32,092 nt of DNA, from positions 1 through 32,092 of the IMG/VR virus record IMGVR_UViG_3300032401_000048. One strand, written 5' to 3'. The notes beneath the pieces were generated by a model, which was not told where the DNA came from, did not search any database, and saw only the letters and a program-made list of their open reading frames with translations. Below are positions 3,278 to 26,276 of the stretch, one piece after another (positions within the stretch are counted from its first letter, which is position 1; every line of letters starts with the position of its first letter). Origin of the DNA: a virus. The position numbers and the translations under genes are program-made.

Positions 3278-3319
3278 AGCAACTTACTTTAGTATGCATT
3301 TTAGCATACCCATGCAACT

Positions 3320-11341: not shown

Positions 11342-11524
11342 TTACTTCATCGACTGGGCGTGTTTGACGGCGCTTTTGTCGTATGACCCTCCTTTTTTGT
11401 GCCAGCCGCTGCTACCGGCTTTTTTGGCATTTATGGATGCATAAAATACGGAGGCACCTTTTTTGGCCCCATATTCACCTTTCATACTAGCGAGCACTTT
11501 GGCTCCGGCTTTGGTTAGTGGCAT
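11342..11524 (-). CDS. Small conserved phage protein (MPLTKxGxKVL type)
   Basis: The 60-residue protein MPLTKAGAKVLASMKGEYGA, followed by KKGASVFYASINA, matches a short pattern commonly found next to portal genes in phages (x-G-x-K-I-L-x-x-M-x-x-x-Y-G-x-K-K-G-x-x-V-F-Y-A-S-I-N). It is basic and its function is unknown. It overlaps the end of the portal gene by 38 nt, so translation is probably coupled. Confidence 0.6.
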   Translation of the reverse strand: MPLTKAGAKVLASMKGEYGAKKGASVFYASINAKKAGSSGWHKKGGSYDKSAVKHAQSMK

Positions 11525-13706
11525 TTTGGCCCCCTTTCTGTTTTAACTGCTGTTTTTGTAGGTCATTTTGAGCTATTGCCTGATCCCCCGATTGTTTGAA
11601 CTTGGCTACTTCCAGAGCCGTCTGGTTTTGGGATTGCATTGCACTTTGCTCAAGGCTCTTCTGTTTTATGACCTGATCGGTTCCGGCGGGGGAAATTTCC
11701 TTTGAAGGTGTCAGTCCGGCCTTGGCTTCCATTTGGCGTTTGATATCTTCCGGTGCATCCTTATAGGGAATGGGTGCCAGTTCCGGGTTATCGGCTACTT
11801 CTGATTTGGGCATGGTCACACCCAAATCCTTGAGTACCTGTACAAAACCGATCTTGTTTTCGGCAATGCGTTTGTCGCTGGCCTCTTTACCTACTTCCCC
11901 GGCATCTTTTAAGGCCTGAAGGAGTGCCGTTTTAAGTTTTGTCTGTTGGTTTGCCTCCATCGCCCCAAACTGGGGATTACCCTCCATCGCATCCATAAAT
12001 TCGGCAGTTGAACCAAACTGGAAGGTATTCAGAAATTTCCTGATGACTACCGCTAATGCTTCCGGCGGAATAATCTGTTCGGTAGCCAGTTTAGTCATGT
12101 AATCAATAAGCTGCATCATGGTGGTACGCTTACCCTCTTCGGTAAAGCCCATGCCCGATTGGGTTTCGATGACCACCTGATAGTCTTTTTTAATTACCGT
12201 AGCGTTTGGAACTTGGACGGTTGAACCTTTTTTCTTAGCGAGCTTTTGATAGGCCTTCATGCCCCGTTCGCCGATAATGTCAAAATAGGTGGGCTTATCA
12301 TTTTGCATAAATGAAATAGTTTTGGGGGTAATGAAGTATTTGCTGCCGAGCTCGATCATCCTTTCGGCGATTCTTTTGGCGGTATTTTTGAGTTGGTCTG
12401 AGGCAATCTTCAGGTTTGAGTATTCGGTGGCCTTTAAGCCCTCAATGGCAACACCGCTTTTTACCCCCGGCGGCAATTGATTTAAAGCCGAAGTTGAGGC
12501 CCCCTGCTCTTCGATGATGCTGTTTAATTCCCCGATGAAGTCAAATACAAACGCGGGCATCGGCGAGAGGGGCATCTGGGCTGGCGGGGTAGTGTCATAT
12601 TCGACTTCTGCCCCTCCCGCAATGTTATTGATCCGGTAATTTTCGCCCCGGCGTTTCATATAAACCCCGACAATTTGGGTGCCGATATATCTCTCTATCC
12701 GGCTCATTACGGCATCAAGGCTCTTATTGGCTGAAATAAATCTCTCTATCAGTGGCACCTGATGGACATAGCCGGGTTCAAACCTAAGATCTACAAACGG
12801 ATATTCGGGGAAGGTGGTGTAGGTATCTTTGAGTGTCATTCCGGCGACTGAGAATACCTGTCTGATAATGGGGTCACCGTCTTTTTTGTCGTATTCGCCT
12901 TTAAGGTCGGCTTTAATCCGGGCCCGGTTTTCGTTACTGACATATTCCTTAAAGAAGGCTTCCTTTAAAAGTAATGTGCCGGTATCCCGGTTCATGCCGA
13001 ACCTACTCATCATGTAGGCTTCCTTAATTTCTGAAGCAGCGTATTTATTATCCGGGTTAATTTTGGCAACCGCCATGGGATCGTAGTCCTCATTGGCTTT
13101 AATCTCTTCTATCGGGGTGGGTACCACTTTTATGATCGCCGGGGATTCGTAAATTTCATTGCCGTTACCCTTGCAGTAAACGTCAAAGGCATCATAGACA
13201 CTAAACCTAATATCTTCTTTAACTGCGTCAGGCCAGATCTGCAAATAGGATACGCCGTGTTTTGAGGTCAATATTCCCATGTTGGTTAATAGCCGTTTGA
13301 TGTCGTATTTATTCCATGCCCACTCAATCCAGTTGCCGATCTGCTTGGCGTTATCCGCTGCCTGTTTTTCGGCCTGTTGGAACTGTTGGAGATCAGGATA
13401 GTTTGACTGCATGACCCGCTCAGGATATACCACCGCTTGGGGCTCACCGGCTAAAAGCAGATTTACGATGCCCCGGATTTGTCTTGACGCTTTCGGGATG
13501 GCCCGATAAGGGATGAAGGTATCCGAAGAGGCTGACAGATCCATGACCCTTCCCGTGGTTCTTGAAACAAACCGGTAGTGGAAACCATCATCAAAGAAGT
13601 TGTTGTTATACCATCTGCGTTCAAAGGGTTTTCTTTGGGCTCCGAAGTTAGCTACAAGCTCATCTACCCGGCGGCCGATTTCAGGGGTCGGAATAAATCT
13701 GTCCAT
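11487..13706 (-). CDS. Portal protein
   Basis: The 739-residue protein should form the dodecameric ring at the packaging vertex. The length is close to P22-type portals (about 725 residues). The start MDRFIPTPEIGRRVDELVAN, an early aromatic-rich segment RRWYNNNFFDDGFHYRF, and the region FEPGYVHQVPLIERFISANK (about residues 310-330) followed by a helix around SRIERYIG look like a portal clip and stem. The segment GVAIEGLKATEYSNLKIASDQ (about 416-436) and the Gln-rich C-terminal tail are typical of the crown/barrel. Its placement after the terminase genes agrees. The ATG is 6 nt after a TACGAT -10 box with no Shine-Dalgarno, so the message is probably leaderless. Confidence 0.8.
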   Translation of the reverse strand: MDRFIPTPEIGRRVDELVANFGAQRKPFERRWYNNNFFDDGFHYRFVSRTTGRVMDLSASSDTFIPYRAIPKASRQIRGIVNLLLAGEPQAVVYPERVMQSNYPDLQQFQQAEKQAADNAKQIGNWIEWAWNKYDIKRLLTNMGILTSKHGVSYLQIWPDAVKEDIRFSVYDAFDVYCKGNGNEIYESPAIIKVVPTPIEEIKANEDYDPMAVAKINPDNKYAASEIKEAYMMSRFGMNRDTGTLLLKEAFFKEYVSNENRARIKADLKGEYDKKDGDPIIRQVFSVAGMTLKDTYTTFPEYPFVDLRFEPGYVHQVPLIERFISANKSLDAVMSRIERYIGTQIVGVYMKRRGENYRINNIAGGAEVEYDTTPPAQMPLSPMPAFVFDFIGELNSIIEEQGASTSALNQLPPGVKSGVAIEGLKATEYSNLKIASDQLKNTAKRIAERMIELGSKYFITPKTISFMQNDKPTYFDIIGERGMKAYQKLAKKKGSTVQVPNATVIKKDYQVVIETQSGMGFTEEGKRTTMMQLIDYMTKLATEQIIPPEALAVVIRKFLNTFQFGSTAEFMDAMEGNPQFGAMEANQQTKLKTALLQALKDAGEVGKEASDKRIAENKIGFVQVLKDLGVTMPKSEVADNPELAPIPYKDAPEDIKRQMEAKAGLTPSKEISPAGTDQVIKQKSLEQSAMQSQNQTALEVAKFKQSGDQAIAQNDLQKQQLKQKGGQNATNQSRSQSAR

Positions 13707-13712
13707 AATCGT

Positions 13713-13740
13713 ATCGTATGAGAATCGGATGGATTGTCAA
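13713..13740 (-). promoter_or_regulatory. Promoter directly abutting the portal start codon
   Basis: On the minus strand, a perfect TTGACA (13740-13735), a 16-bp spacer and TACGAT (13718-13713) are seen, with ATG only 6 nt after the -10 box. Transcription would begin at or next to the ATG. Confidence 0.6.
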
Positions 13741-13741
13741 C

Positions 13742-16681
13742 TTATTTAAGGGCTTCCTCTAATGCTTGGTGGAGTTCAGCTTCGGTTCTGGGGGTTTGGC
13801 TTTTTGGTATTTTTGCAATGCCTGATGAACTTCCTGCTTCACGCGGGCTGGAGATTTTCCGGCGGTACTGATTAAAAACATTAATCGCTTCATCAATCGG
13901 ATTATACACCCCTTTGACCATTTTTCCTAATTCTATATTGCCATTCCAGCCCCCCGCAAGGCTCTCAAGATCGAAGGCTCCAAGTTGCTTTGACTTAATG
14001 GCTCTCCCCAGCGTTTCTGCGTTCGGATCACCAACTTGTGAAACATCCAAATAAATATTTCCACCATCTTCCCATCCGCCGATATGATTTCCGGGGATCT
14101 GTAATAGTTTATAGTTCTTTTTATAAAACGCATCAATATCTTTTGGATTGAATTTATCCTTTGGTATAATCGTTTCCAATCCTTTATATGGTGAATATGA
14201 AAAACCTTTTGTCGGTTGGTTGCCGGATAATGAAATTGTCACCCCACCATTTTTAACAGTCTGCTGATATGCCAAATCTGATATTTGGAATGATGGCGGA
14301 TTGCCACTGGGCTGTTTTAATTGCGGTGCTTGTCCCATAATCTTTGCTTTGATGTCAGGGGTGAGGTGAATGGCCTGTTGCATAACCGATGGAGGTTTTG
14401 ATAAATCTATTGTCTGTCCATATTTTTCATCCAATTTAGCCATTAATACTTTGTCTTTATGCAACGCATTAATTGTTCCTTCTTCGCTCAATCCTTTAAA
14501 ATACCCTTTTTTAATTATGGCATTATATATTTCATCATCGTTTGATGCTTCCAATAATCCTGAAGCGACAACTCTAATTTTCCCATTCCCTAATTTTTTT
14601 GTTACGATTTTTGTTGTAGCATCATCACCATATTCGTTTACATCTTTGGCAATTTCCATTCCAATCTTAACCGTATCGTAATTAATATCACCTTTACCTA
14701 TTGCCATATAATTATTTGTATTTCTGGGATTTTCGGATGCCAATCCCAAATCCAACTTTTCCACCTTTCCGCCCGTTATGTCCTCAACGATATTTTTTAC
14801 CTGTCGGTCATAGAGGTTGTATGCCCACTCGCCGCCGATGTTTAAGCCTTCGCCAGAAAGTTTACCTTTAGATCCACCTGCCAATATTTTTTCTCCAACA
14901 CCTTTTCCGATAACCTGATCGAGTTGTTTACCTACCCATGTATCTACTTGCGGTTGACCTTTTGCAGTCACAATTTTCCCAGCCTGATCTACTTCTAATT
15001 GAATATCGCTTATATCTCCTTTTGGCTTTATAAAAACTGATTTTGTTGGAGTACCCGCCACTTGATGCCATGAAATATCATCCACCTGCTTACTCAAATT
15101 ATATCTGGCTGCCTGTTGCTCGCCTGTAGTCCATGCAAAATACTCGGCATCGCTGTCAACTGCGTCTTTTAAGGCGCGTTTAGCGGATACTTTTTGCCAG
15201 TCTTTGAGGAGGGGATGGTTGGGAATAGCACTTGATGTTTCTTTTAATTTTTTTGTAATATTATTCCACGCCTCTACTTCTGTATCAAAACCAGTATTAG
15301 GAAATCCTTCTCTATAAAAAAATTGGTTAGTTGGATTATCAATGAAGTATGCTCCTTCACCAGTAGAACTTTTTGCTTTATATACTGTAAATCCTTGTTG
15401 TTTGGCTGTATCTTTTGTTATTTCTGTTGCAAACCCCTTACTCCTTCCCTTCCTTGCCCAATCGGATTGCATTTCTTCCATGAAGGCGACCTTTTTTCCA
15501 TCATAGGTTCGTTCATTCATCCTGATATGGGCAAGAACATTAGGTTCATTCCAATGGGCGCTTTCAAACTGATTTGAAATTCGTGACATGGATTTTATAG
15601 CTGCCTCACGAGATGGGAACAATCCCATTGATCGATTATTATCATCCATAAGCATTACGCCATCTCTTGGATCAGGTGCATCCGTTACATACCAGCCTTT
15701 TTCGGTTAGCATTTTTGCAGTATTATCAGGCGCCTGTATCAGTATTTCCCGATAGTTTTCACCGCCTGGAAGCGTATATTGGGAATATTTGGTAGGAGTT
15801 GTATTTACTTTATAAATATTACTAATAACCCCGCCCTCGGTAGGATCAAATAAAACGTCATAACCATCTAAAAATAATCTTTGTTTGAGTGTAGCTTCAT
15901 CAATTTTACCCGATTGATATTCATCAACATCTCCCTGTAATAATACTGGTAATTCTTCATAACTTGAGGGTTCATTTTTACTAGTCCCTTTTATCGTTTC
16001 CGTGGTCTGTGCCAATTCGGGGGCAAACGGCTGGGCTTCACTTGTCACCGCATTGCCTTTGAGGTTCTGAAACTGGTTTTTGTTGAGGATATACTCATCC
16101 GAGTCCTTAATCAGAATCTTATTACCGCTGATTCTGTATGGCGTCAGGGGTTCACCCGCCGGGATAACTGCTTTTTGTCCATGGATATCGGTAATTGGGA
16201 CTGCTCTTTTTGTATTCATTATTGGTTCTACACCCTCTATTGTGACTGGGGTTTTGGGCTTTTCAAGGAATGATAATGGTGCCGGTAGTGCCTTTTGGAT
16301 ATTGGCTTCTTCTACTAGTGCTGTCGTGCGGTTGAGAATATTTGGTACCGTTTTATTTATTGCCGTAGGCCCGGAGGTCATAAACATTAGCGGCGTTGCC
16401 TTTGTTAATGATTCGGGTGTCACCCGGCTTGAGGTCATATCCGGTTGGTTTTCCGGGTAAAGCATCGATTGGGGTAAAACCCGTTTAGTTTGGGGATTGA
16501 ATATATATTGTTGTAATAGTTCGGGTAATTGGGTGGCCGGGATACCTAGCTTTAGAGCTTGGGTTAAAGGATCATAGCCGGGTGGCTTTTGCATTACCGG
16601 TTCAATGATTTGTTTTTGCGCCTGAAGTTTTAACTCATCGACCTGTTTTCTGATTTCATCAAAGAAGGCATTTACGTCCAT
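13742..16681 (-). CDS. Large polyvalent virion protein (979 aa)
   Basis: The protein has no single catalytic signature that I can assign. Its central part (about residues 305-635) carries the patterns of the large polyvalent-protein-associated domain: NYREILIQAP, HWNEPNVLAHIRMNER, AFMEEMQSDWARKGRSKG, EYFAWTTGEQQAARYN and WAYNLYDRQVKNIVEDI. Proteins of this kind are very long virion components, thought to be carried in the capsid and delivered with the DNA. The N-terminus (1-100) is helical and Gln-rich. The 680-979 region has a second mixed segment with KKNYKLLQIPGNHIGGWEDG. It lies between a small membrane protein and the portal. TAAACT ends 6 nt before its ATG, so the start is probably leaderless. 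Internal ejection protein is my best guess. Confidence 0.65.
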   Translation of the reverse strand: MDVNAFFDEIRKQVDELKLQAQKQIIEPVMQKPPGYDPLTQALKLGIPATQLPELLQQYIFNPQTKRVLPQSMLYPENQPDMTSSRVTPESLTKATPLMFMTSGPTAINKTVPNILNRTTALVEEANIQKALPAPLSFLEKPKTPVTIEGVEPIMNTKRAVPITDIHGQKAVIPAGEPLTPYRISGNKILIKDSDEYILNKNQFQNLKGNAVTSEAQPFAPELAQTTETIKGTSKNEPSSYEELPVLLQGDVDEYQSGKIDEATLKQRLFLDGYDVLFDPTEGGVISNIYKVNTTPTKYSQYTLPGGENYREILIQAPDNTAKMLTEKGWYVTDAPDPRDGVMLMDDNNRSMGLFPSREAAIKSMSRISNQFESAHWNEPNVLAHIRMNERTYDGKKVAFMEEMQSDWARKGRSKGFATEITKDTAKQQGFTVYKAKSSTGEGAYFIDNPTNQFFYREGFPNTGFDTEVEAWNNITKKLKETSSAIPNHPLLKDWQKVSAKRALKDAVDSDAEYFAWTTGEQQAARYNLSKQVDDISWHQVAGTPTKSVFIKPKGDISDIQLEVDQAGKIVTAKGQPQVDTWVGKQLDQVIGKGVGEKILAGGSKGKLSGEGLNIGGEWAYNLYDRQVKNIVEDITGGKVEKLDLGLASENPRNTNNYMAIGKGDINYDTVKIGMEIAKDVNEYGDDATTKIVTKKLGNGKIRVVASGLLEASNDDEIYNAIIKKGYFKGLSEEGTINALHKDKVLMAKLDEKYGQTIDLSKPPSVMQQAIHLTPDIKAKIMGQAPQLKQPSGNPPSFQISDLAYQQTVKNGGVTISLSGNQPTKGFSYSPYKGLETIIPKDKFNPKDIDAFYKKNYKLLQIPGNHIGGWEDGGNIYLDVSQVGDPNAETLGRAIKSKQLGAFDLESLAGGWNGNIELGKMVKGVYNPIDEAINVFNQYRRKISSPREAGSSSGIAKIPKSQTPRTEAELHQALEEALK

Positions 16682-16687
16682 GAGTCA

Positions 16688-16715
16688 AGTTTACGGCTTT
16701 TGGTTAGTGTGTCAA
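16688..16715 (-). promoter_or_regulatory. Promoter directly abutting the 979-aa gene
   Basis: On the minus strand, TTGACA (16715-16710), a 16-bp spacer and TAAACT (16693-16688) are seen, then 6 nt to ATG at 16681. The -35 box overlaps the 3' end of the preceding gene. Confidence 0.5.
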
Positions 16716-16994
16716 TTCTTCCTGCTCAAATTCTTTTTTGCCGGCGTTTATTTCTGCCTGTATGTGTTTATCAAATAATTCATCATCTTCGGCGTTAAGA
16801 GCCGTGAATTCCGGCATATTTGGGGTATCATTCACGGGTTTTTTCTCCATTAAGGCATTTTGGGTTAGATCCGTCAGATCCTTGGCCATGATAGCTTTTG
16901 TCCAGTCTTTGCGCTCATCCTGAAGAGATCTATTTACCAAATAGATTTCAGCCAGTAAGGCAATAATGATAATGGCAAAGATGATTTCGGTCAT
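16704..16994 (-). CDS. Small membrane-anchored protein
   Basis: The 96-residue protein has a single N-terminal hydrophobic segment (residues about 3-22, EIIFAIIIIALLAEIYLV), then a basic/helical stretch and an acidic C-terminal tail. This gives an inner-membrane anchor with a mostly soluble, helical tail. Comparable one-helix proteins occur near terminase and portal genes in many phages; their role is unknown, with spanin- or holin-related functions being possible. The ATG overlaps the stop of the upstream zinc-finger gene by 4 nt. Confidence 0.5.
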   Translation of the reverse strand: MTEIIFAIIIIALLAEIYLVNRSLQDERKDWTKAIMAKDLTDLTQNALMEKKPVNDTPNMPEFTALNAEDDELFDKHIQAEINAGKKEFEQEELTH

Positions 16995-17197
16995 TTGCGT
17001 AATCCCCCGTGACTGGCCTGTTTGGTTTTTGATAGATCCATAAATGGGGTTTCGACATTGGGAACAAACTTGGGCTCTATAGATTTTTCGGGATCTGCCT
17101 TCAATGGGCCTGAGCGGTGATAAAGAACTTTATGGGATGGGGAACAGAATACTTTCCGGTCTATGGCTTTTCCGCAATAATCGCAGTTTACGCTCAT
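16991..17197 (-). CDS. Small zinc-ribbon protein
   Basis: The 68-residue protein begins MSVNCDYCGKAIDRKVFCSP. Its four candidate zinc ligands form C-x2-C-x7-C and then a histidine (SPSHK). Such small zinc fingers are frequent in phages and often bind nucleic acid or act in late regulation. The open frame has an upstream ATG at 17206, but a TACCAT -10 box overlaps that codon. The ATG at 17197 lies 8 nt after the box and is preferred, with no leader. Its promoter is overlaid by two palindromes, so it is a regulated gene within the late block. Confidence 0.55.
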   Translation of the reverse strand: MSVNCDYCGKAIDRKVFCSPSHKVLYHRSGPLKADPEKSIEPKFVPNVETPFMDLSKTKQASHGGLRK

Positions 17198-17198
17198 A

Positions 17199-17255
17199 TT
17201 TACCAATGGTAAACGATTGTTTACTTTTAGTCAATATTTGTTTACCAAAGGTAAA
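17199..17255 (-). promoter_or_regulatory. Promoter with two palindromic operators
   Basis: TTTACCAATGGTAAA (17199-17213) and TTTACCAAAGGTAAA (17241-17255) are two copies of one dyad, with centres 42 bp apart. Between and across them lies a minus-strand promoter: TTGACT (17234-17229), 17 bp, TACCAT (17211-17206). The downstream dyad covers the -10 box and the upstream one lies behind the -35. This is a classic arrangement for cooperative repression by a dimeric DNA-binding protein. Confidence 0.7.
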
Positions 17256-17675: not shown

Positions 17676-18918
17676 TGGTGTCGATGATGGAGCGGTTATA
17701 TTGATCTTTGATGGAATTGTAGTAGTTCCTGATGCGGGGCTCATTTGGAAGCTGTTGGTTTTTGACGATTTCGGTAAGTTGTGAAACTGCAAGGGCGTGT
17801 GAGAGTACGATATCGTCATGGTAGCCCGTTCTGGCTTGATATCTGATCTTTCCGGTAACACCGATTTCGTAGGAAAAGTTTTCAAATTCTTCGAGCGTTT
17901 CATGTAAGGGTAGCATCAGGCATTTGCGTTGTTCTATCCATATAGACAGCTTTTCAATCAGTTCTTTTTTGACCTGTTCGGTGATCTTTACCGGGATGAC
18001 CGGGATATTAATCCTGATCAGATCATCCGCAATGGGGTCACCAATTCCGGTGGCATCTATAACCACAATGGCATCGTTATATTTCCTTGACAGCGCTGCA
18101 ATGCGCTGTTTTTGAAAGGGCCATTCTATGGTTTGAAACCTGTCCTGATATACCTGATTATTTTTCATTCTATCATATACCGTCAACACGGTGTAATCCG
18201 TAACCTTAGCTAAATCGCAGCCGATAACATAAAGATGTTTGGGTTGTTCACCGGATGGATGGCTGATCATGGCGCCCCGAACTGATCTAAACACGGTGCC
18301 TTCATTTTCCAGAAAGTTACACATGACTTCCTGTTCGTACATCTTCTGGGTCATGGAAGTCTTAAGTTGATTTAATTGAAATGGGTTATAGATTCCCGAT
18401 TGTTCGCCCGTAAGATGCCAGCTGGCCCATCCGGGCAGCTTACCGCCCCGTTGCATAAATTCAAATAGATGGTTTTTACCTTTGGGTGTACCGATAAACC
18501 ATGCCCAAGCGTTATTGGCGATTACAGCGGGCTCAATGACCTGCCATGCCTCAAACTTCATGGTCGCAAATTCATCTAATACCACGCCGTAAGGGCCGGG
18601 GCCTCTGAGCCTATCTACATCATCGCTGCCTTGTAGCTGATAAAGCGAGCCGTTCTTAAAATATATGACACATTCGCTATCGTTCTTTTTGGCTATCAGC
18701 TGCTCTGGAATGAAATGGAAGATCATGTTGGGATCGCGCCAGATGGTGTCTTTACCTTCGGTAAACGTGGGGAATAAATGCCAATAAAGGCCCTTTCTTA
18801 AATGAGCTTGTTTAACGAGCTCATAGATTGCCGTTGTGGTCTTTCTGGCCTTCCGGTGCCAGACTAGCACCTTGAATTGATGGCTGTCCTGAAGCAGTAC
18901 CAGCTTCTGGTGTGGCAT
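17650..18918 (-). CDS. Terminase large subunit (ATPase/nuclease)
   Basis: This is the packaging motor. Seen in order are a Walker A-like loop in WHRKARKTTTAI (a departure from the usual G-K-T), Walker B VVLDEFATM, and coupling motif FIGTPKG. The RNase H-like nuclease domain follows, with acidic residues in IGCDLAKVTDY, VVIDATGIGD and GYHDDIVLSHALA. An in-frame ATG at 18984 also exists. I choose MPHQKLV at 18918, because most large terminases have a P-H-Q or similar segment about 20-30 residues before the Walker A. Even so, the gene overlaps the small subunit by 98 nt. It would bind the small subunit and the portal. Confidence 0.85.
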   Translation of the reverse strand: MPHQKLVLLQDSHQFKVLVWHRKARKTTTAIYELVKQAHLRKGLYWHLFPTFTEGKDTIWRDPNMIFHFIPEQLIAKKNDSECVIYFKNGSLYQLQGSDDVDRLRGPGPYGVVLDEFATMKFEAWQVIEPAVIANNAWAWFIGTPKGKNHLFEFMQRGGKLPGWASWHLTGEQSGIYNPFQLNQLKTSMTQKMYEQEVMCNFLENEGTVFRSVRGAMISHPSGEQPKHLYVIGCDLAKVTDYTVLTVYDRMKNNQVYQDRFQTIEWPFQKQRIAALSRKYNDAIVVIDATGIGDPIADDLIRINIPVIPVKITEQVKKELIEKLSIWIEQRKCLMLPLHETLEEFENFSYEIGVTGKIRYQARTGYHDDIVLSHALAVSQLTEIVKNQQLPNEPRIRNYYNSIKDQYNRSIIDTNAEWDSEY

Positions 18919-19327
18919 CAACAACGACACCGGCGGGAATAAATCCGGTTCCTGTAATGATGGCGAGTGGTTGTCCATTTGCACCTGTGATTTCAGTTCG
19001 ACTGGCTTCCATTAAACCATGATTTGCCTTAAGCAGAAAGATTGCCATGGCGCTGTTAACGTCTTTTCCGCCATACATCCCGTCATTCATTAATTGGTTC
19101 TTTTGTTTTTTCTTTAAGGCTTTTATTGTAGCGTCAAACTCTGGATATTTTTCGGCATATTCAGATATGCGTTCATCATCTAGGCCGAGCTGAAGCGCTA
19201 AACCCTCAATCGTTGGTAATTCGGTAGCTTCCCTATTACAGGAGTTTATATATTCAATTGCCCGTTTTATAAATGACGGGTCATATTTGGTGGGCCTACC
19301 GCCCGGATGTTTGGTTAAACTCATCAT
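18821..19327 (-). CDS. Terminase small subunit
   Basis: The 168-residue protein has a DNA-binding N-terminal region GGRPTKYDPSFIKRAIEYIN, followed by an HTH-like segment LQLGLDDERISEYAEKYPEF and a helical Lys-rich stretch. The C-terminus (SLAPEGQKDHNGNL) is a flexible tail of the kind seen on small terminases. These features are standard for this protein, which recognises the packaging site. The open frame extends to 19420, but the ATG at 19327 (or 19324) overlaps the TGA of the transketolase gene and is preferred. The 3' part overlaps the large-subunit gene extensively. Confidence 0.7.
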   Translation of the reverse strand: MMSLTKHPGGRPTKYDPSFIKRAIEYINSCNREATELPTIEGLALQLGLDDERISEYAEKYPEFDATIKALKKKQKNQLMNDGMYGGKDVNSAMAIFLLKANHGLMEASRTEITGANGQPLAIITGTGFIPAGVVVDATPEAGTASGQPSIQGASLAPEGQKDHNGNL

Positions 19328-19803
19328 GTTCTGATTAGTGATAAAAATGTCGGTAGTTTGTTGTTGATTATAATAGGCATTAACTTTGCAATTTGGTCGG
19401 TATGGGTGGGCCAATAGCATTCTATTTGCGGCAGGTTAGCAAGTACTGCCCTAGCCTCGCTTGACCAATGTGAAAATCCGTCATGCTTATAATCCCGATC
19501 CCGGCCTGAGCCGATCAGCTTAATTGGGATCAGTTCATGATTGACGTAATTTCGCAGGGATTCAAACGGCCGGTAAAGCAAAAAGGATGTGATGCTATAA
19601 ACAAACGGGATCTTGCCGGACATGGCAAGTCCTACCGCGATATCTACCATCGCCTGTTCACTAGCGCCAGCATTAATATAACGATCAGGAAAACGGGTAC
19701 TAATATAATCAAACCCGCCATATCCCAAGTCCCCGGTAAGCGCATATATTCGATCATTATTATACATCGCCTGATCTAATTCTTTAAAAAAGGATTTACG
19801 CAT
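19324..19803 (-). CDS. Transketolase-like, pyrimidine-binding subunit (short form)
   Basis: This subunit would pair with the next gene to form a thiamine-diphosphate transketolase. The segment LTGDLGYGGFDYISTRFPDR followed by INAGASEQAMVDIAVGLAMSG is the pyrimidine domain, and the Glu of GASEQ is the expected cofactor-activating glutamate. At 159 residues it lacks the C-terminal domain III of the usual ~310-residue bacterial subunits. It resembles, from memory, a short two-gene transketolase family of viruses and some bacteria. The open frame extends upstream to 19869. I use ATG 19803, which overlaps the end of the TPP-subunit gene by 8 nt. Confidence 0.8.
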   Translation of the reverse strand: MRKSFFKELDQAMYNNDRIYALTGDLGYGGFDYISTRFPDRYINAGASEQAMVDIAVGLAMSGKIPFVYSITSFLLYRPFESLRNYVNHELIPIKLIGSGRDRDYKHDGFSHWSSEARAVLANLPQIECYWPTHTDQIAKLMPIIINNKLPTFLSLIRT

Positions 19804-20434
19804 AATATTTTTTGAGTTTTTTGTAAAGCTTATCGTCCAGTTTTTTGTAATGCCCAGCAATACCTTCAAGTCCCGGCGGGTTTTCAGTGCGTTTAAAAAC
19901 TACCTGTGGAAATTTATCTTTGATGAATGCTGCCAGTTGCCATTCCAATCTGTCCCGATGCACTGATTTGAAAGCGCTAAAACCATTGGCATTAATCATC
20001 ACAATTAAATTCGGGATGATATAATCAGCGGCAATCCGCAATGATTCCCACATTGACCCTTCGGCCCATTCACCATCAGAACTGATACAGAAAACATTAT
20101 GCAATGGGTCTGCCAGTGCCATCCCGATTGCGATTGGCAGTCCATGACCCAGACTGCCAGTTGAACAGTCAATTTTACAGTATTTGCATCTGTCGGGATG
20201 GGTGCCGTGGTGATTATAAATTGTCAGGGCGTTGCCATCTTCGTATTGTTCGATGGCACAGTATAGCGCCAAACCCGCATGACCGTTTGATAATACAATC
20301 TTATCGCCGGGTTGTTTTAACTGATAGGCATCGTCAATTAGTTCCGCAGCAGTCAGGCAACTGCCCAGATGTGACAATTCATATTTAAAACTGATTTCCA
20401 ATATCCGTTGCCGGATTTTATTTAAAGGAGTCAT
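19796..20434 (-). CDS. Transketolase-like, TPP-binding subunit (short form)
   Basis: The 212-residue protein has the expected motifs: HLGSCLTAAEL, LSNGHAG, STGSLGHGLPIAIGMALA and the TPP/Mg motif SSDGEWAEGSMWES ending with NANGFSA. The usual G-D-G is S-D-G and the second Asn of the motif is split (NAN), a minor departure. The reaction would be two-carbon ketol transfer between sugar phosphates, feeding the pentose phosphate or a sugar-precursor pathway. There is an unusual Cys triplet (CKYCKIDC) just before the STGSLG loop. It starts 17 nt inside the epimerase gene's 3' end. The product probably works with the epimerase in making a modified sugar. Confidence 0.8.
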   Translation of the reverse strand: MTPLNKIRQRILEISFKYELSHLGSCLTAAELIDDAYQLKQPGDKIVLSNGHAGLALYCAIEQYEDGNALTIYNHHGTHPDRCKYCKIDCSTGSLGHGLPIAIGMALADPLHNVFCISSDGEWAEGSMWESLRIAADYIIPNLIVMINANGFSAFKSVHRDRLEWQLAAFIKDKFPQVVFKRTENPPGLEGIAGHYKKLDDKLYKKLKKYYA

Positions 20435-21260
20435 AGGTTTTTTTGAGGCCCTCAGAAAGTGAATAATGCTGTATCCAGCCGAAACTTTTGAGAAGTGAAT
20501 TATCAGCTACCCAGTTATCCCGGCTTCGGAGTGATTTAATATTGGTTATTGGAAGTAGATTAACATTCTTTTTGGCAAACATGGCTAAGTATTTAACGAT
20601 ATCATAATTATCATACTGCTGCCCGGAGCCGATATTAACCGCCTTGCCTTTTAAGTCTTTGGCATATTCCTGAACCAATAGCAGCGCTTCCAAAAAGTCA
20701 TCAATATAAATCCAGTCATGCTTACCGGGGGCAAGCTGCATGGGTTCATTATATTTGACACAGTGGATGGCGGTCGGAATAAACCTGAGTGCATTCTCAC
20801 CGGGGCCATAGACCGAGAAAGGCCGGACACTTATCACCGGTTTTAGGTATTGGGATACATAAGCCCTGATGAGTAGCTCCCCGGCGATTTTAGTAATGCC
20901 ATACCAGTCGGTGGCTTCTAAACTATTGGTTTCATGCATCGGATGTTTTTTGTCGCCGTATACGGATGAGCTTGAGGCGTTGATAAAGGCCTTGTAATCA
21001 GTATCCCCGGTTGCCAGAAGCAGATTATAAAGATTAATAATGTTGGCCTGAATCATTTCGTGAGAATCCGGCATCCATGCCATGTTCCCATACCCGGCGA
21101 AATGATAAATATAGGTCGGCGGAAATTCTTCGGCAAACTTCATTAGGGTTGATAAATCCTTCAGTTGATGATGGGGAATACACAAAACATTGCGGGATGG
21201 GAAGCGTTTGATTAAATGTGAACCGATAAAACCGGAAGATCCGGTTAGCCAAATCTTCAT
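20418..21260 (-). CDS. NAD-dependent sugar epimerase/dehydratase (SDR family)
   Basis: The protein (about 280 residues) begins with the Rossmann motif MKIWLTGSSGFIGSHL. It carries the extended-SDR catalytic set: NASSSSVYGD (Ser/Thr), and D-W-Y-G-I-T-K (the Y-x3-K pair), followed by RPFSVYGPGE, the substrate-binding RP-x-x-V-Y-G-P-G. It should act on a nucleotide sugar (for example UDP-galactose-type or GDP-mannose-type). It is the first gene of the late block and is followed by the transketolase pair. The ATG at 21260 lies exactly 7 nt after an extended TGATATAAT -10 element. The frame would also allow 21269, but that ATG overlaps the -10 box. Confidence 0.85.
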   Translation of the reverse strand: MKIWLTGSSGFIGSHLIKRFPSRNVLCIPHHQLKDLSTLMKFAEEFPPTYIYHFAGYGNMAWMPDSHEMIQANIINLYNLLLATGDTDYKAFINASSSSVYGDKKHPMHETNSLEATDWYGITKIAGELLIRAYVSQYLKPVISVRPFSVYGPGENALRFIPTAIHCVKYNEPMQLAPGKHDWIYIDDFLEALLLVQEYAKDLKGKAVNIGSGQQYDNYDIVKYLAMFAKKNVNLLPITNIKSLRSRDNWVADNSLLKSFGWIQHYSLSEGLKKTYDSFK

Positions 21261-21267
21261 TGCGGGC

Positions 21268-21276
21268 ATTATATCA
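21268..21276 (-). promoter_or_regulatory. Extended -10 promoter of the late/sugar operon
   Basis: TGATATAAT on the minus strand (21276-21268) gives an extended -10 element ending 7 nt before the epimerase ATG. I see no good -35 box, which is common for extended -10 promoters. This predicts a leaderless epimerase message. Confidence 0.6.
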
Positions 21277-21390
21277 CACCGATAGTTACATCATCTTTTG
21301 AATTTGCAGCCGTTGTGGGGCATCCTACGAGGTCTTTTTTTGACCTATAGTGGCAGAAAGCCCGATTTGACGCTCTTTGTGCATGGGGGC

Positions 21391-21437
21391 TTGACAACAT
21401 ATGTTGTATATGATATCATGCTCTCAATAAGAGCATG
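21391..21437 (+). promoter_or_regulatory. Major early promoter with two overlapping dyads
   Basis: TTGACA (21391-21396), a 17-bp spacer and TATCAT (21414-21419), preceded by TG for an extended -10, give a strong promoter. The perfect 14-bp palindrome ACAACATATGTTGT (21394-21407) overlies the -35 and spacer. CATGCTCT-N5-AGAGCATG (21417-21437) overlies the -10 edge and start site. Both are candidate operators; the second could also be a 5' hairpin. The leader to the first annotated ATG is about 124 nt. Confidence 0.7.
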
Positions 21438-21502
21438 ACCAAAGACAGCACCGCAGCTTCCTGTACAGTCAGGACACACATTAAAAATTTAATCTGCCAA
21501 AC

Positions 21503-21887
21503 CTACTAGCCTTTATTTATGCGGTAGCTTTTAAAGAAAGGAAGCGCATATGACACAAGCTGAGTTAAAAATTCAATTTGTTAGGGCTTATTTAAAAGCC
21601 CGTAAAGATCAATTAGAACTGGTAGCTTTAAAAGCTAAAGTCCTGCCGATTATAAAAGACACCGGCGAGATAGTAGCCGGTCACAAACTGGCAACCGCTC
21701 TTCGCCCGGTATATTCAGATGTAACTTTGGATGAGGCCCGAAAATATGACGCGGTGATTAAAGCCATTGATTCTGCCAAATTAACCGCCGAGATTAAAGC
21801 CGGGGCCAAAGTTGAGGGTGTGAAATACACCAAATATATAACCGTAACTTAATATAAACCAGCTACCGCAGCAATAAGGGCTAGTAG
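21503..21887. repeat. 27-bp imperfect inverted repeat enclosing the first early gene
   Basis: Positions 21503-21529 and 21861-21887 are inverse copies, with 24 of 27 matches. They share CTACTAGCC and GCGGTAGCT blocks separated by a variable centre. They bracket the 21550-21852 gene. In addition, a 19-bp sequence AGAAAGGAAGCGCATATGA is repeated directly at 21534-21552 and 21906-21924, giving the first two genes identical ribosome-binding sites. I see no target-site duplication around the repeat. Confidence 0.7.
21550..21852 (+). CDS. Unknown early protein (100 aa)
   Basis: The protein is mostly helical and Lys/Ala-rich, beginning MTQAELKIQFVRAYLKARKD and ending with a beta-rich VEGVKYTKYITVT. 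I recognise no family. It is the first clear gene of the early block, has the shared AAAGGAAGCGCAT ribosome-binding site, and is enclosed by the 27-bp inverted repeat. An early takeover or regulatory role would fit its position, but nothing in the sequence shows it. Confidence 0.55.
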   Translation: MTQAELKIQFVRAYLKARKDQLELVALKAKVLPIIKDTGEIVAGHKLATALRPVYSDVTLDEARKYDAVIKAIDSAKLTAEIKAGAKVEGVKYTKYITVT

Positions 21888-21921
21888 ATAATATAAATTA
21901 TTTTTTAGAAAGGAAGCGCAT

Positions 21922-22263
21922 ATGAAATCAATAATCGTAACTGAAAAATGGTGGAAATGGTTTAATCTTGAATATGACCGGGGTGATTGTGGGTATCAAT
22001 TCTCCCATATAACCATTATTCCGGTAGGGAATAAACTGCAAATAACTGCAGATGACACATTTGTCCTGACTGAAAAAGAGGACATAAATAATGTGGGAGA
22101 AACCGTGTGGAGCTGGTTGACCATGATTATACGAACCGATGCCGATCCATATGGTTGGGTCATGGAAGCACATGAGAGCATGGATAGAAGCGAATGGATG
22201 AAGGCGTTTAATTACGTCAGGGGATGCAGAAGAATTATGGCACAATTAAAGGAGGTAAAATAA
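21922..22263 (+). CDS. Unknown early protein (113 aa)
   Basis: This acidic, Trp-rich protein begins MKSIIVTEKWWKWFNLEYDR and has a C-terminal helix-like AFNYVRGCRRIMAQLKEVK. No family is recognised. It uses the same ribosome-binding cassette as the preceding gene. Its many tryptophans and a beta-rich first half suggest a small compact domain. Confidence 0.5.
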   Translation: MKSIIVTEKWWKWFNLEYDRGDCGYQFSHITIIPVGNKLQITADDTFVLTEKEDINNVGETVWSWLTMIIRTDADPYGWVMEAHESMDRSEWMKAFNYVRGCRRIMAQLKEVK

Positions 22264-22264
22264 T

Positions 22265-22492
22265 ATGAAAAAACATATGTTAAATACTGAAGATCCGAAT
22301 CCTGATAACTGGGTTGATATGTGCAATTATAAAAATTGCCAGAACCCGGTTAAGGCCAAAGGTTGGTATTTATGTGATAAACACATAGGTCAGCAGGAGC
22401 GGGATTTTCAGGTGAATCATATCAGGATTGGCAATCTCATTTTCAAAACCGATAAAGCCACGGCGTTAATATTTAATAAGGGGGTGAAATAA
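22265..22492 (+). CDS. Small putative zinc-binding protein
   Basis: The 75-residue protein has a candidate zinc site, C-N-Y-K-N-C followed by W-Y-L-C-D-K-H (C-x4-C-xn-C-x2-H), in its first half. The second half is a beta-hairpin-like region (RIGNLIFKTDKATALIF). An excellent AAAGGAGGT precedes the ATG, and the gene starts 1 nt after the previous stop. Nucleic-acid binding is plausible; function unknown. Confidence 0.5.
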   Translation: MKKHMLNTEDPNPDNWVDMCNYKNCQNPVKAKGWYLCDKHIGQQERDFQVNHIRIGNLIFKTDKATALIFNKGVK

Positions 22493-22493
22493 C

Positions 22494-22790
22494 ATGACTA
22501 TTCCACAACCTGTAATAAATACATTTATGAGAATCGGGTTAAATCCGAAATTTGCTCAGGAGATGGCTGACCGAACTGACAAGGTAAAGGTTGAAAATCG
22601 TTTTGGCGGGGGCAGTTGTGAAACTAACCCATTGGTAGCATACCTGATTAATTGGGTATACGAAACCTCAAACGATTACGAACGGACACCTAATCCGTGG
22701 GTAAAGTTGCCGACAATTGCAGACTTTGACCGGGTTCGTTATTTTATCGCCAAGGTCGATGGTAACGCATATATGACCTGTATTGATTAA
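22494..22790 (+). CDS. Unknown early protein (98 aa)
   Basis: This protein begins MTIPQPVINTFMRIGLNPKF and has a Gly-rich centre (NRFGGGSCETNPLVAYLINW). No family is recognised. It starts 1 nt after the upstream stop, behind an AAGGGGGTG ribosome-binding site. A small globular protein is likely; several small phage proteins of unknown function have a similar Gly-rich loop after a helical start. Confidence 0.5.
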   Translation: MTIPQPVINTFMRIGLNPKFAQEMADRTDKVKVENRFGGGSCETNPLVAYLINWVYETSNDYERTPNPWVKLPTIADFDRVRYFIAKVDGNAYMTCID

Positions 22791-22808
22791 AAGAAAGAGG
22801 TGAATTTT

Positions 22809-23024
22809 ATGGATATAAGAACAACTGATGCATATAAGAAAATGGATTCATATACTGCCTGTAGTTATGCGGAGGGGTTTTCGGAAACGGAACCGACCGA
22901 AGTTGAACTACACGCTGCTTGGCAATGGCTGGTTGATACCGGACTCTGTTGGCAATTGCAGGGTTGGTATGGCCGGGCCGCTGCCAGTCTGATAGAGGCA
23001 AGTAGAATTGAACCGAAAGAATAA
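22809..23024 (+). CDS. Small conserved-looking phage protein (71 aa)
   Basis: The longest frame begins at a GTG (22800), but AAAGAGGTG places the start at ATG 22809. The C-terminal half AWQWLVDTGLCWQLQGWYGR, followed by AAASLIEA, matches a pattern I recall in many small phage proteins of unknown function (x-W-x-x-L-I/V-D-T-G-x-x-W-x-L-Q-G-W-x-G-R-x-A). The gene ends this five-gene early cluster before a strong terminator. Confidence 0.6.
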   Translation: MDIRTTDAYKKMDSYTACSYAEGFSETEPTEVELHAAWQWLVDTGLCWQLQGWYGRAAASLIEASRIEPKE

Positions 23025-23030
23025 AATTAA

Positions 23031-23064
23031 ACCGGTATAGGTAAAACTATGCCGGTTTTTTTTT
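23031..23064 (+). terminator. Strong bidirectional rho-independent terminator
   Basis: ACCGGTATAG pairs with CTATGCCGGT (one G-U) around a six-base loop, followed by nine T's on the plus strand. On the minus strand the hairpin is followed by a T-rich TTTAATTTTATT tract, so it can also serve the converging resolvase gene, whose stop codon lies inside it. Confidence 0.85.
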
Positions 23065-23484
23065 GGCTACCTGAGCTTGTTTGCTGAATTTCAATTGGTT
23101 GGCGCTCTCATCGGTGAAGTGCTGCTTTTTGGCGGGCTTGGCATATTTGACTTTGGGGGCAGCGCCGTCTTGGATTACCTGAATTAGATCCGAAAGTAAT
23201 ACAAACGCGAACGGTTCGCCCTTATAAATCCATGCAATCATTGGCGGTTTGGTTTGGGATTGGTCATTGGCTTTTACCCACCATGGCATGAATGTGGTTT
23301 TGGCGGTGTTTTTAACTTCGACAAAAAACGGGAAGTCTTTGGAAGTCAGATCCCCCTTCCAACCATCTATGCCGCCTGATAGCGGGGTTCTTCTGACCTC
23401 ATAGCCGAAGCCACGGATCAGATCCCTGACGGCATATTCCCCACGCTTACCCTTAGAATGCGGATTGATGGTTTTATTTTTCAT
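23047..23484 (-). CDS. Hjc-like Holliday junction resolvase (PD-(D/E)XK nuclease)
   Basis: The 145-residue protein has a helix with KGKRGEYAVRDLIRGFG, then RRTPLSGGIDGWKGDL and FPFFVEVKN. This is the archaeal Hjc-type arrangement of E16, D45 and E56-x-K58 active-site residues. The substrate would be four-way DNA junctions in late replication or packaging. The C-terminal half is divergent, ends Lys-rich, and is tentative. It lies on a short minus-strand island within the plus-strand early block. No Shine-Dalgarno is obvious before its ATG. Confidence 0.75.
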   Translation of the reverse strand: MKNKTINPHSKGKRGEYAVRDLIRGFGYEVRRTPLSGGIDGWKGDLTSKDFPFFVEVKNTAKTTFMPWWVKANDQSQTKPPMIAWIYKGEPFAFVLLSDLIQVIQDGAAPKVKYAKPAKKQHFTDESANQLKFSKQAQVAKKKPA

Positions 23485-23785
23485 ACCCTGAAAGCTGGAG
23501 GGAAAGAACGCTTAAATACCGCCTTTCAAAGTTACTTCGATCAAGGTTTCCCCCAATCGCTCTGGCAATGTCCAACCAATACCTAAGTTTACTTTCCAAG
23601 TTGTGGAACCTCTGCACTATTGCAAAACGGCCATTTTTACAAGAAATGAGTTTTGTTTTTGGCTCCCCAACTCACTCACCATACTCAGGGATTCCCTCTG
23701 TATGTCCTACTCACCCTTACGGACTTTCGGCAAAGAGCGCTGCATTAACCGTGCGTAGCAGTTTATTGTGCAACCCCAGCTTTCA
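23485..23785 (-). other. Unexplained ~300-bp region bounded by inverted repeats
   Basis: No gene of normal quality fits this gap. TGAAAGCTGG at 23489-23498 recurs inverted at 23776-23785, and CTTTCAAAGT occurs directly at 23523-23532 and 23780-23789. Inside is a dyad AGGGAATCCCT. One minus-strand frame (roughly 23484-23655, without an ATG) reads like protein, and two others are open too. The right-hand repeat forms the 3' end of the zinc-ribbon gene. A structured RNA, a small mobile element or a decayed gene are all possible. Confidence 0.4.
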
Positions 23786-23942
23786 AAGTACGCTTGCTTA
23801 AACATTTCCGGCATTCCAAAAACGGTGCGCCTTCCGGCAGAAAATACGATGACAACGGATAGAACTTCACCATCAGTTCCCCGCAGGTGGGGCATTTAAT
23901 TTTTATTAATGGCAATGGTTGTTTTAAATTTTTACGATCCAT
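23763..23942 (-). CDS. Small zinc-ribbon protein (59 aa)
   Basis: This 59-residue frame has the zinc-ribbon ligands C-P-T-C-G and C-R-K-C, separated by about 23 residues (LIKIKCPTCGELMV ... FLECRKCLSKR). Its ATG overlaps the end of the HTH gene (ATG 23942; HTH stop at 23932-23934), so the pair is coupled. Zinc-ribbon proteins of this size often bind DNA or RNA polymerase. The final residues fall in an inverted repeat shared with the neighbouring gap, so the C-terminus may be altered. Confidence 0.55.
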   Translation of the reverse strand: MDRKNLKQPLPLIKIKCPTCGELMVKFYPLSSYFLPEGAPFLECRKCLSKRTLKAGVAQ

Positions 23943-24105
23943 TTTCTGATTCCTTTCTGGCTTTCTTAACTATCGCCTGAATCCGGGGATAGCTGACTTT
24001 AAACTTTTTAGAGATGTAGGAATAACTATAGCCTTCCTGATTCATTTTGAGTATTTCCTGCCTTCGGGCCTTCCATTTTTCGCGTAGGGTTTTGATTCCT
24101 TCCAT
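23932..24105 (-). CDS. Helix-turn-helix DNA-binding protein
   Basis: The 57-residue protein has an HTH of the resolvase/homeodomain type: ILKMNQEGYSYSYISKKF followed by KVSYPRIQAIVKKARK. The frame could begin at 24126, but the -10 box TATGAT of its promoter lies inside that stretch. I start at ATG 24105, 9 nt after the box. It faces the helicase operon across overlapping promoters and lies upstream of a zinc-ribbon gene, so it is a good candidate repressor of its own and the divergent promoter. Its size would suit a very small repressor or an accessory protein. Confidence 0.65.
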   Translation of the reverse strand: MEGIKTLREKWKARRQEILKMNQEGYSYSYISKKFKVSYPRIQAIVKKARKESENGS

Positions 24106-24114
24106 ATGTACATG

Positions 24115-24183
24115 ATCATAAATCATATATTATATAATGTCAACGGTTTGATATATTGACTTTGGGTTTGGAAGGATTAATAT
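24115..24183. promoter_or_regulatory. Back-to-back divergent promoters
   Basis: On the minus strand, TTGACA (24143-24138), 17 bp, TATGAT (24120-24115) drive the HTH gene. On the plus strand, TTGACT (24156-24161), 16 bp, TAATAT (24178-24183) drive the 24194 gene. The two -35 boxes are only 12 bp apart. Start codons lie 9-10 nt after each -10 box. Confidence 0.65.
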
Positions 24184-24193
24184 TTACTTACCT

Positions 24194-24460
24194 ATGTCGA
24201 TCCGTAACATCCAAGGCAGCAGTCCCCCCGTTCCCACATATAGCGGGTCGACAAACGGGGGGGCTGGTGTTTTGGATGCCTGTCTGCGGCTGATGACCAA
24301 GTATGAAGATGCTTCTGCCTATTGGTTTTTACAGCACCGGTTCTATAAGCCGGGTTCCAAAGAAGAGAAGAAGTGCCTGAAGAAAGCCGATTATTATACG
24401 GATATGTTTATTTCAGTTTCCGAAAGGGTAATTCGTTATGCCAAAAAAAACCTTAGATGA
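24194..24460 (+). CDS. Unknown protein (88 aa), first gene of replication operon
   Basis: The protein has a Pro/Ser/Gly-rich N-terminus (SSPPVPTYSGSTNGGAG) and a helical, basic C-terminal part (FISVSERVIRYAKKNLR) with a Tyr-rich centre. No family is recognised. It overlaps the ATPase gene start by 23 nt. Its ATG lies about 10 nt after a -10 box and has no near Shine-Dalgarno. It probably acts with the ATPase, by position only. Confidence 0.5.
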   Translation: MSIRNIQGSSPPVPTYSGSTNGGAGVLDACLRLMTKYEDASAYWFLQHRFYKPGSKEEKKCLKKADYYTDMFISVSERVIRYAKKNLR

Positions 24461-25934
24461 ACAGATAGAATCGGACATAATGCGGGAACGCAAAACCGGG
24501 CCAAGCTATCTGGCTTCCTTTCCCAATTTGGTTGATATAGTTGAAAACGAAACCGGAGATTATGAATATCTGATTTATAATCCAACCACAAAAAAATGTT
24601 TTACCCAATTGGATGTCGTTATTGATAACAAAACCTATCATCCCCCACCCAAAAGATTACTACCCCATAATCTTTTATTTCCGGCTAAGGAAAATGTGCT
24701 TCATTACATATTTGAACGAAATTCCAGTCCAATGGAACATATTGGATCAAACGGTATCATTGGTGACAATGTTGGTGACGATAGTGACGTTATGACGATA
24801 AAAGAGAACGTAGTGAATATTTGGGATGTGATGTTGTATGATGAGATTATAGGTTATTATAAAGATCGGGCAGAATTACCGGATGAAAATTTATATGATT
24901 TATGTACGGCATGGGCATTCCATACTAATGCCATGGAACGGGCAAACTTTTCACCAATCATTTATTTTCTGGGTCTGCCGGAAAAAGGAAAAAGCCGAAT
25001 GCTGAAAGCTATGACCTATATTGCCCATCGGGGGCTGCGGAAGATTAGTTTAACTGACGCACAGGTTCTACGGGATTGCACCCATATTGATGCTACATTG
25101 GCCTTAGACATGATGAATTTATGGAATAAGGTCGAGAAGGCCGGGAGCGAAGATGTGTTTCTGAACAGACCGGAGCGGGGAGTTGATGTTTCGCGGGTGA
25201 ACAGACCGGAGAAGGGTGCATTTAATGATACCGATTATTATACGGTGTTCGGCCCGACTATATTTGCCACAAATGAAACAATCCATGAGATTTTAGATAC
25301 CAGAGCCATCCCGATTATCATGGTAAATTCTACCAAAGAGTTTTCGTTGCAGGTCAAACCGGAAGATGCATTACCGATAAAAGAAAAGCTGACCGCATGG
25401 AGAGCCTGTACAATGGGGGATAAATGGGAAGAAGTGGGAAGAATTGCCAAGTCCCGGTTGGGAGATATTACACAACCGCTATATCAGGTTATTAAAAATG
25501 TAAACCCGGCGAAGGCACCCGCTTTTATTGATATCATTCAGAAAATTGAAATAAAGCGGCTGGCAGAAAAAGCCGATTCAATGAGCGGGCAAATAATATT
25601 GGCTCTATTAGCCTGTAGCGAGCTGGTTGATCATGGCTGTATTAAGGGACAGGTTCTGGCAAATAAATTTAATGAAGGAAATACAAATTCCAAATACAAT
25701 ATTCAAAGCCGCACCCTATTGAATAGACTTCGTGCTATGGGCTTAGAAACCCAGACCATGCATGGCGGCAATATGGGCATAATTTGGAATCCGGTGCGTA
25801 TTGACGCTCTAAAGATTGAATTTGGAATAGATGATGAAATATTACCACCTTCCTCTATAACGTCAACAACGCCAACAACGTCAACATTGTCACCAAAACA
25901 GGAGGCATGGTATGCAAAAGAAGCCGATAGTTAA
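24438..25934 (+). CDS. P-loop helicase/ATPase for replication (SF3/AAA-like)
   Basis: The 498-residue protein has Walker A at residues 179-186 (GLPEKGKS), a probable Walker B around D224 (TLALDMM), a sensor-like FATN at 276-279 and an arginine-finger candidate R289. This layout is that of SF3/D5-like or YfjI-type phage replicative helicases. It would unwind DNA at the phage replication fork. The N-terminal half (1-165) has no recognisable primase motif, so any priming function is unknown. The tail is Thr/Ser/Pro-rich (TSTTPTTSTLSP). A GAAAGGG ribosome-binding site lies upstream. Confidence 0.7.
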   Translation: MPKKTLDEQIESDIMRERKTGPSYLASFPNLVDIVENETGDYEYLIYNPTTKKCFTQLDVVIDNKTYHPPPKRLLPHNLLFPAKENVLHYIFERNSSPMEHIGSNGIIGDNVGDDSDVMTIKENVVNIWDVMLYDEIIGYYKDRAELPDENLYDLCTAWAFHTNAMERANFSPIIYFLGLPEKGKSRMLKAMTYIAHRGLRKISLTDAQVLRDCTHIDATLALDMMNLWNKVEKAGSEDVFLNRPERGVDVSRVNRPEKGAFNDTDYYTVFGPTIFATNETIHEILDTRAIPIIMVNSTKEFSLQVKPEDALPIKEKLTAWRACTMGDKWEEVGRIAKSRLGDITQPLYQVIKNVNPAKAPAFIDIIQKIEIKRLAEKADSMSGQIILALLACSELVDHGCIKGQVLANKFNEGNTNSKYNIQSRTLLNRLRAMGLETQTMHGGNMGIIWNPVRIDALKIEFGIDDEILPPSSITSTTPTTSTLSPKQEAWYAKEADS

Positions 25935-26100
25935 AGAAAAATTTAAACCCTTTTGCTGGTGGTGTGGGAAAGAAATTCCTGCCGGAAATCTGTGTTATGC
26001 ACATCGGGATAAAACAGAGGCTTTTATATGGACAAACGGCAAAACATCTTTTACATATGTTCCGCATAATAATGGAAAGTGGGATGTGAAAAAAACTTGA
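25912..26100 (+). CDS. Small zinc-binding protein (62 aa)
   Basis: This 62-residue protein has C-W-W-C-G followed by C-Y-A-H (FKPFCWWCGKEI ... GNLCYAHRDK), a C-x2-C-xn-C-x2-H zinc site. An AGGAGG in good position precedes the ATG, and the gene overlaps the ATPase end by 23 nt. The rest is basic and beta-rich. Binding to nucleic acid or to the helicase is possible; no known family. Confidence 0.55.
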   Translation: MQKKPIVKEKFKPFCWWCGKEIPAGNLCYAHRDKTEAFIWTNGKTSFTYVPHNNGKWDVKKT

Positions 26101-26104
26101 TCTC

Positions 26105-26134
26105 TTGACAGAATCATAACACTTGTTCTACAAT
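26105..26134 (+). promoter_or_regulatory. Promoter of the recombination operon
   Basis: TTGACA (26105-26110), an 18-bp spacer and TACAAT (26129-26134) form a near-consensus sigma70 promoter. ATG of the 26142 gene is 7 nt after the -10, so the message should be leaderless. It begins a new unit after the zinc-finger gene. Confidence 0.65.
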
Positions 26135-26141
26135 AGCAGAT

Positions 26142-26276
26142 ATGAGTACAGACGAATACAAAGCTCTGTCCCTCGATGCCCAAGCTGAATACGACAGTTA
26201 TTTATGGGATTTGGCCTATGATATCTATCTGGATGCCAAAGCCGAATCCGAAGCGCAATATGAACCGGAAAATTGA
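26142..26276 (+). CDS. Small acidic protein (44 aa), leaderless
   Basis: A 44-residue frame (MSTDEYKALSLDAQAEYDSY ... EAQYEPEN) is rich in Asp, Glu and Tyr, with no basic patch. Its ATG lies exactly 7 nt after a TACAAT -10 box. It overlaps the following gene by 17 nt. No family is recognised; acidic small proteins early in phages often mimic DNA or bind host factors, which is only a possibility here. Confidence 0.5.
   Translation: MSTDEYKALSLDAQAEYDSYLWDLAYDIYLDAKAESEAQYEPEN

Follow-up and report, generated by a model that had tools for sequence, protein, structure and literature searches.

Leaderless transcripts are known from phages, archaea and bacteria. The classic leaderless phage mRNA is that of lambda cI transcribed from PRM and, in the lambda record, the cI start codon lies exactly 6 nt after the -10 box TAGATT. 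In archaea, leaderless genes are marked not by -10/-35 boxes but by a TATA-like signal located about 30 bp 5′ of the initiation codon. In bacteria, leaderless genes have been reported from many groups, and the so-called TA-led genes carry a -10-like signal about 10–12 bp 5′ of the start codon (PMC3160421). The -10-motif pattern of Deinococcus-Thermus consists of a -10 box adjoining the ORF, with a spacing requirement, and leads to a leaderless mRNA (PMC12340547). Kasugamycin is reported to block the translation of leadered mRNAs and to spare that of leaderless ones (PMC5230787).

In the phage contig described here, complete -35/-10 pairs end 6–9 nt 5′ of an ATG, hence the start codon is probably also the 5′ end of the corresponding mRNAs. 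With a probability of roughly 0.8, these are genuine sigma-70-type promoters giving leaderless mRNAs, beside genes led by a Shine-Dalgarno (SD) site in the same phage. No earlier description of the promoters of this phage family was found in the open-access literature.

The phage contig and its genes

The window (i.e., the whole stretch analysed, 32,092 nt) is the complete record of the IMG/VR virus contig IMGVR_UViG_3300032401_000048. Profile searches identified genes for a terminase large subunit, a P22-type portal and a major capsid protein, which places the contig among the tailed phages. Genes lie mainly on the minus strand in the left two thirds and mostly on the plus strand in the right third. 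The GC content varies between 38 and 53%, and megablast with 24 kb of the window against named phages brought up no closely related DNA. Two neighbouring late genes are central to what follows:

11487–13706, minus: portal protein gene (P22_portal, 739 aa), without SD site
13742–16681, minus: gene for a 979-aa protein; neither a homologue in the relatives nor a Pfam family at E 0.1 was found

The gene at 19324–21260 encodes an NAD-dependent epimerase according to Pfam, and the 122–3282 region contains, by eye, transketolase-like halves with glycosyltransferase- and methyltransferase-like genes; both recur in several relatives. Together they suggest a phage-encoded sugar modification. Minus-strand ORFs leave the record at both ends (1–84 and 31287–32092) and, should the genome be circularly permuted, might belong to a single gene; their reading frames join only if one missing base is assumed.

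Promoters adjoining start codons

The sites in the window are as follows:

82–120, minus: start of the gene running off the record; TTGACA (120–115), N16, CACAAT (98–93), N8, ATG (84–82)
13704–13740, minus: portal promoter; TTGACA (13740–13735), N16, TACGAT (13718–13713), N6, ATG at 13706
16679–16715, minus: promoter of the 979-aa gene; TTGACA (16715–16710), N16, TAAACT (16693–16688), N6, ATG at 16681
17195–17234, minus: promoter of the small gene 16991–17197; TTGACT (17234–17229), N17, TACCAT (17211–17206), N8, ATG at 17197
21258–21276, minus: start of the epimerase gene; extended -10 only, TGATATAAT, N7, ATG at 21260, without a -35 box
24103–24143, minus: promoter of a 57-aa HTH-like gene; TTGACA (24143–24138), N17, TATGAT (24120–24115), N9, ATG at 24105
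24156–24196, plus: weaker site divergent from 24105; TTGACT (24156–24161), -10 box TAATAT (24178–24183) or AATATT (to 24184)
26105–26144, plus: promoter of a 44-aa ORF; TTGACA (26105–26110), N18, TACAAT (26129–26134), N7, ATG at 26142

An earlier sequence-only reading had named seven of these starts, and direct reading bears out 84, 13706, 16681, 17197, 24105 and 26142. Six of the seven combine a TTGACA-like -35 box, a 16–18 nt spacer and a TATAAT-like -10 box, the exception being 21260, where the -35 box is absent. At six window sites, the -10 box stands next to the start codon, 6–9 nt away. The weaker 24194 site, absent from that list, reads TTGACT-N16/17 followed by TAATAT/AATATT, N10/9 and the ATG; taken singly, 24194 and 21260 could each be a chance match.

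Upstream ATGs in the same frame, claimed for three genes, do occur at 21260 (ATG at 21269) and 24105 (ATG at 24126); at 17197 the codon is a TTG, at 17206. At 21260, homologues place the N-terminus of the protein at this start with an agreement within 1–2 residues. The promoter positions support the start-codon calls at 21260, 24105 and 17197. All five genes cited as SD-led counter-examples (5829, 9992, 22265, 26414 and 30211) have a clear SD site, and the use of both leaderless and SD-led initiation in one genome is well supported by the sequence and by comparison with relatives. As for scale, the feature is real, and "widespread" stands for about 7–8 of some 50 genes.

Leadered promoters and palindromes are also present:

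21391–21419, plus: strong promoter with a leader, TTGACA-N17-TATCAT, some 130 nt 5′ of the SD-led gene 21550
7059–7086, minus: likewise strong and leadered, TTGACA-N16-TACCAT, 23 nt 5′ of the SD-led start 7035
17199–17213 and 17241–17255, no strand: two TTTACCNNNGGTAAA palindromes, 42 bp apart, bracketing the 17197 promoter

The palindrome at 17199–17213 overlaps the -10/start region of the 17197 promoter and the one at 17241–17255 sits just 5′ of its -35 box, an arrangement that suggests a putative operator at which a DNA-binding protein would repress this promoter. A third TTTACCNNNGGTAAA palindrome is found at 18751–18765, within the terminase gene. A perfect 14-bp palindrome, ACAACATATGTTGT, lies at 21395–21408 and overlaps the -35/spacer region of the leadered 21391 promoter. 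Further downstream, an imperfect 46-nt inverted repeat (74%; 21484–21529 and 21861–21906) flanks the small gene 21550–21852 on either side, and the two starts following the repeats have a common context, AGAAAGGAAGCGCATATGA.

Enrichment over chance in the window

The null model consisted of 300 dinucleotide-preserving shuffles of the window. TTGACA promoters with an ATG at 6–9 nt were observed five times, the shuffles averaging 0.12; TTGAC[AT] promoters were observed seven times (24194 counted), the shuffles averaging 0.21; none of the 300 shuffles reached the observed counts, the shuffle maximum being 2. The check proposed in the sequence-only reading, a count of TANNNT-N6-9-ATG, gave no enrichment (93 versus 90.4, sd 10.1), so TANNNT alone was rejected as evidence within the window: the signal resides in the -35/-10 pair and in its distance to the ATG. 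Similarly, a plain promoter scan of the window returned about as many sites as the shuffles, hence a positional test of the -35/-10 pair was required.

Family-wide statistics

With terminase, portal and capsid proteins as queries, searches recovered roughly a hundred related IMG/VR contigs, which with the window amount to about 1.39 Mb; gene starts in the relatives were called by script and are uncurated. The distance from promoter to ATG was scanned over 1.28 Mb (duplicates removed, window included) that contain 184 TTGACA promoters, taking as endpoint an ATG that begins an ORF of 40 aa or more. The distances peak at exactly 6 nt with 16 cases, followed by 6, 5 and 3 cases at 7, 8 and 9 nt, over a background of about 1 per position. 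The fraction at 6–9 nt is 16.3% for TTGACA versus 2.0% for permuted -35 hexamers, the best-scoring permutations being shifted copies of TTGACA. Seen from the gene starts, 39 of the 233 called starts with a -10 box at 6–9 nt also match the -35 hexamer at 5 or more of its 6 positions, versus 8/225, 5/203 and 7/183 (2.5–3.8%) at three other -10 offsets.

Across the family, genes lacking an SD site show a peak of TATAAT-like hexamers at 6 nt that is missing from SD genes, and there is no excess at 20–35 nt. A family-wide excess of the -10 box alone at 6 nt may exist. SD sites are rare among the leaderless-type genes (1/33, or 2/42), a figure partly due to construction and to be read beside the likewise low 10% of -10-only genes. 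Absence of SD was rejected as independent proof after this -10-only control (5% of both-box genes versus 10% of -10-only genes, p = 0.38), since for the most part it follows from the presence of the -10 box itself. Control sequences were few and gave little power: TerL-distant IMG/VR contigs hold 15 TTGACA promoters in 331 kb, two of them with an ATG at 6–9 nt, while lambda, TP901-1 and Meiothermus MMP17 have none at 6–9 nt and Tunturi_4 and Thermus Riverbug have one each at 6 nt.

Conservation and gene content in relatives

The arrangement is concentrated in the closest relatives of the window. In the portal tree, the window and three contigs (L004, L005 and L006) form one supported clade, joined by L139 and L074. 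In these four sequences (80 kb), 11 of 16 TTGACA promoters have an ATG at 6–9 nt, compared with 24 of 186 in the remaining 1.31 Mb of the family. In L004, whose portal is 65% identical in amino acids, the portal promoter reads TTGACG-N16-TATTAT-ACGATT-ATG; N6 is kept and the spacer is unrelated to that of the window, 3 of 16 positions matching. L006 has kept the portal promoter with N7, and L005 has TTGACA-N15-TATAAT but with a leader of 32 nt. Nearly all other relatives yielded no such promoter 5′ of the portal start, which usually follows directly after the upstream gene.

Other genes carry the same arrangement. Leaderless-type promoters precede HNH-like endonucleases in L004, L006, L009, L020, L049 and L103, and small HTH-like proteins in the window (24105), L006, L075, L112 and L120; in the relatives, the HNH and HTH labels are based on sequence appearance and mutual similarity. 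A family of proteins of about 95 aa is leaderless-type in L005, L020, L023 and L066, and its orthologues in L047 and L054 have an SD site instead. Such switching of orthologous genes between leaderless-type and SD modes offers a second point for comparative work, next to the case of phage structural genes with predicted leaderless mRNAs beside SD-led genes.

The same-strand gap 5′ of leaderless-type genes has a median of 35 nt, approximately the length of a promoter, versus 2 nt for other genes, and these genes have homologues in a median of 5 contigs of the family versus 15 for other genes (p = 0.03). The interval from the 16704 gene to the portal is occupied by the 979-aa gene in the window and by an HNH-like gene in L004, both of them preceded by a leaderless-type promoter of their own. 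These observations suggest that the promoter-ATG unit may serve inserted genes. A bolder version, which we regard as less likely than not, is that this unit of about 37–40 bp, devoid of ribosome-binding site, could be the standard expression device of the lineage for inserted or uncoupled genes. Its clients would then possibly be, with the same reserve, the HNH-like endonucleases, the HTH regulators, the 979-aa gene and the portal behind the insertion. If this is true, leaderless promoters would act as cassettes in the evolution of the late operon.

Proposed mechanism and rival readings

A sigma-70-type RNA polymerase, presumably that of the host, would transcribe from the leaderless-type promoters, with the transcription start falling at the AUG or within about 3 nt of it. 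When 6 nt follow the -10 box, the first transcribed base would be the A of the ATG, if transcription initiates 7 nt past the box. The resulting leaderless mRNAs would be translated without SD site, and many other genes of the phage would rely on SD sites or, probably, on translational coupling. The promoters at 17197, 16681 and 13706 would restart expression inside the late gene block, and the remaining ones would drive regulator, accessory and small genes. The promoter sequences, their spacing, their enrichment over chance and their conservation in relatives are direct observations; the positions of the transcription starts, the leaderless translation and the use of the host polymerase are what we infer.

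It is improbable that the promoters are real and the first ATG goes unused, either because the mRNA begins a few bases into the gene or because translation initiates further downstream at a codon with its own SD site. At the N6 sites, transcription could indeed start a few bases further down; however, portal homology in the window, L004 and L006 runs from residues 4–5, which places the start at the promoter-adjacent ATG, and the exact 6-nt peak fits a transcription start on the A of the ATG and is otherwise unexplained. Far less credible still is the possibility that AT-rich intergenic sequence mimics -10 boxes and that the sites were merely picked by eye. The shuffled-level results for TANNNT-N6-9-ATG alone and for the general promoter scan would agree with it, but the paired -35/-10/ATG arrangement stands far above both shuffles and permuted hexamers and recurs at orthologous genes of relatives, hence chance is refuted for the set of sites as a whole.

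The question of the host

Leaderless initiation had been taken as a clue to a Deinococcus, actinobacterial or archaeal host. This is unsupported, because leaderless genes are spread over many groups of bacteria (PMC3160421) and the sites have a TTGACA -35 box of E. coli type. That the arrangement marks such a host is rather unlikely, although predicted leaderless fractions are high in Deinococcus-Thermus and Actinobacteria (averages of about 39% and 19%; PMC3160421), Thermus phages are among the nearest named TerL matches (26–32% identity) and the nearest capsid matches are actinophages (22–23% identity). These TerL and capsid similarities are too distant for a host assignment. Moreover, the consensus TTGACA box is not archaeal, and the window signals are -35/-10 pairs and not of the archaeal type. 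In D. radiodurans the motif is the -10 box, which an added -35 region only enhances (PMC12340547), whereas TANNNT-N6-9-ATG at shuffled level in the window leaves no enrichment of a -10 box devoid of -35. The GC content of the window (38–53%) also weighs against this host reading, as does the fact that no prophage or plasmid relative was found: genome contigs gave no match to the portal and capsid profiles and plasmids none to the capsid. Scans for tRNAs and Rfam families gave no useful host clue, and all capsid and terminase matches in named phages were distant. Leaderless promoters alone should therefore not be read as a host signature.

Comparison with known systems

The mechanism is known; what sets this small lineage apart is its unusually dense use, which extends to structural genes. 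As for lambda cI, the spacing of 6 nt between -10 box and ATG is favoured, here as the peak of a whole family. The difference is that lambda uses it for its repressor with a weak -35 box, while here consensus -35 boxes serve several genes including the portal. Similar to the TA-led genes, leaderless-type genes are mixed with SD-led genes in one genome; that survey concerned bacterial and archaeal genomes and a -10 signal (PMC3160421), whereas in this phage family the signal includes the -35 box. The Deinococcus-Thermus pattern likewise has a -10 box adjoining the ORF, with the difference that its conserved motif is the -10 box alone (PMC12340547), which is unenriched in this window.
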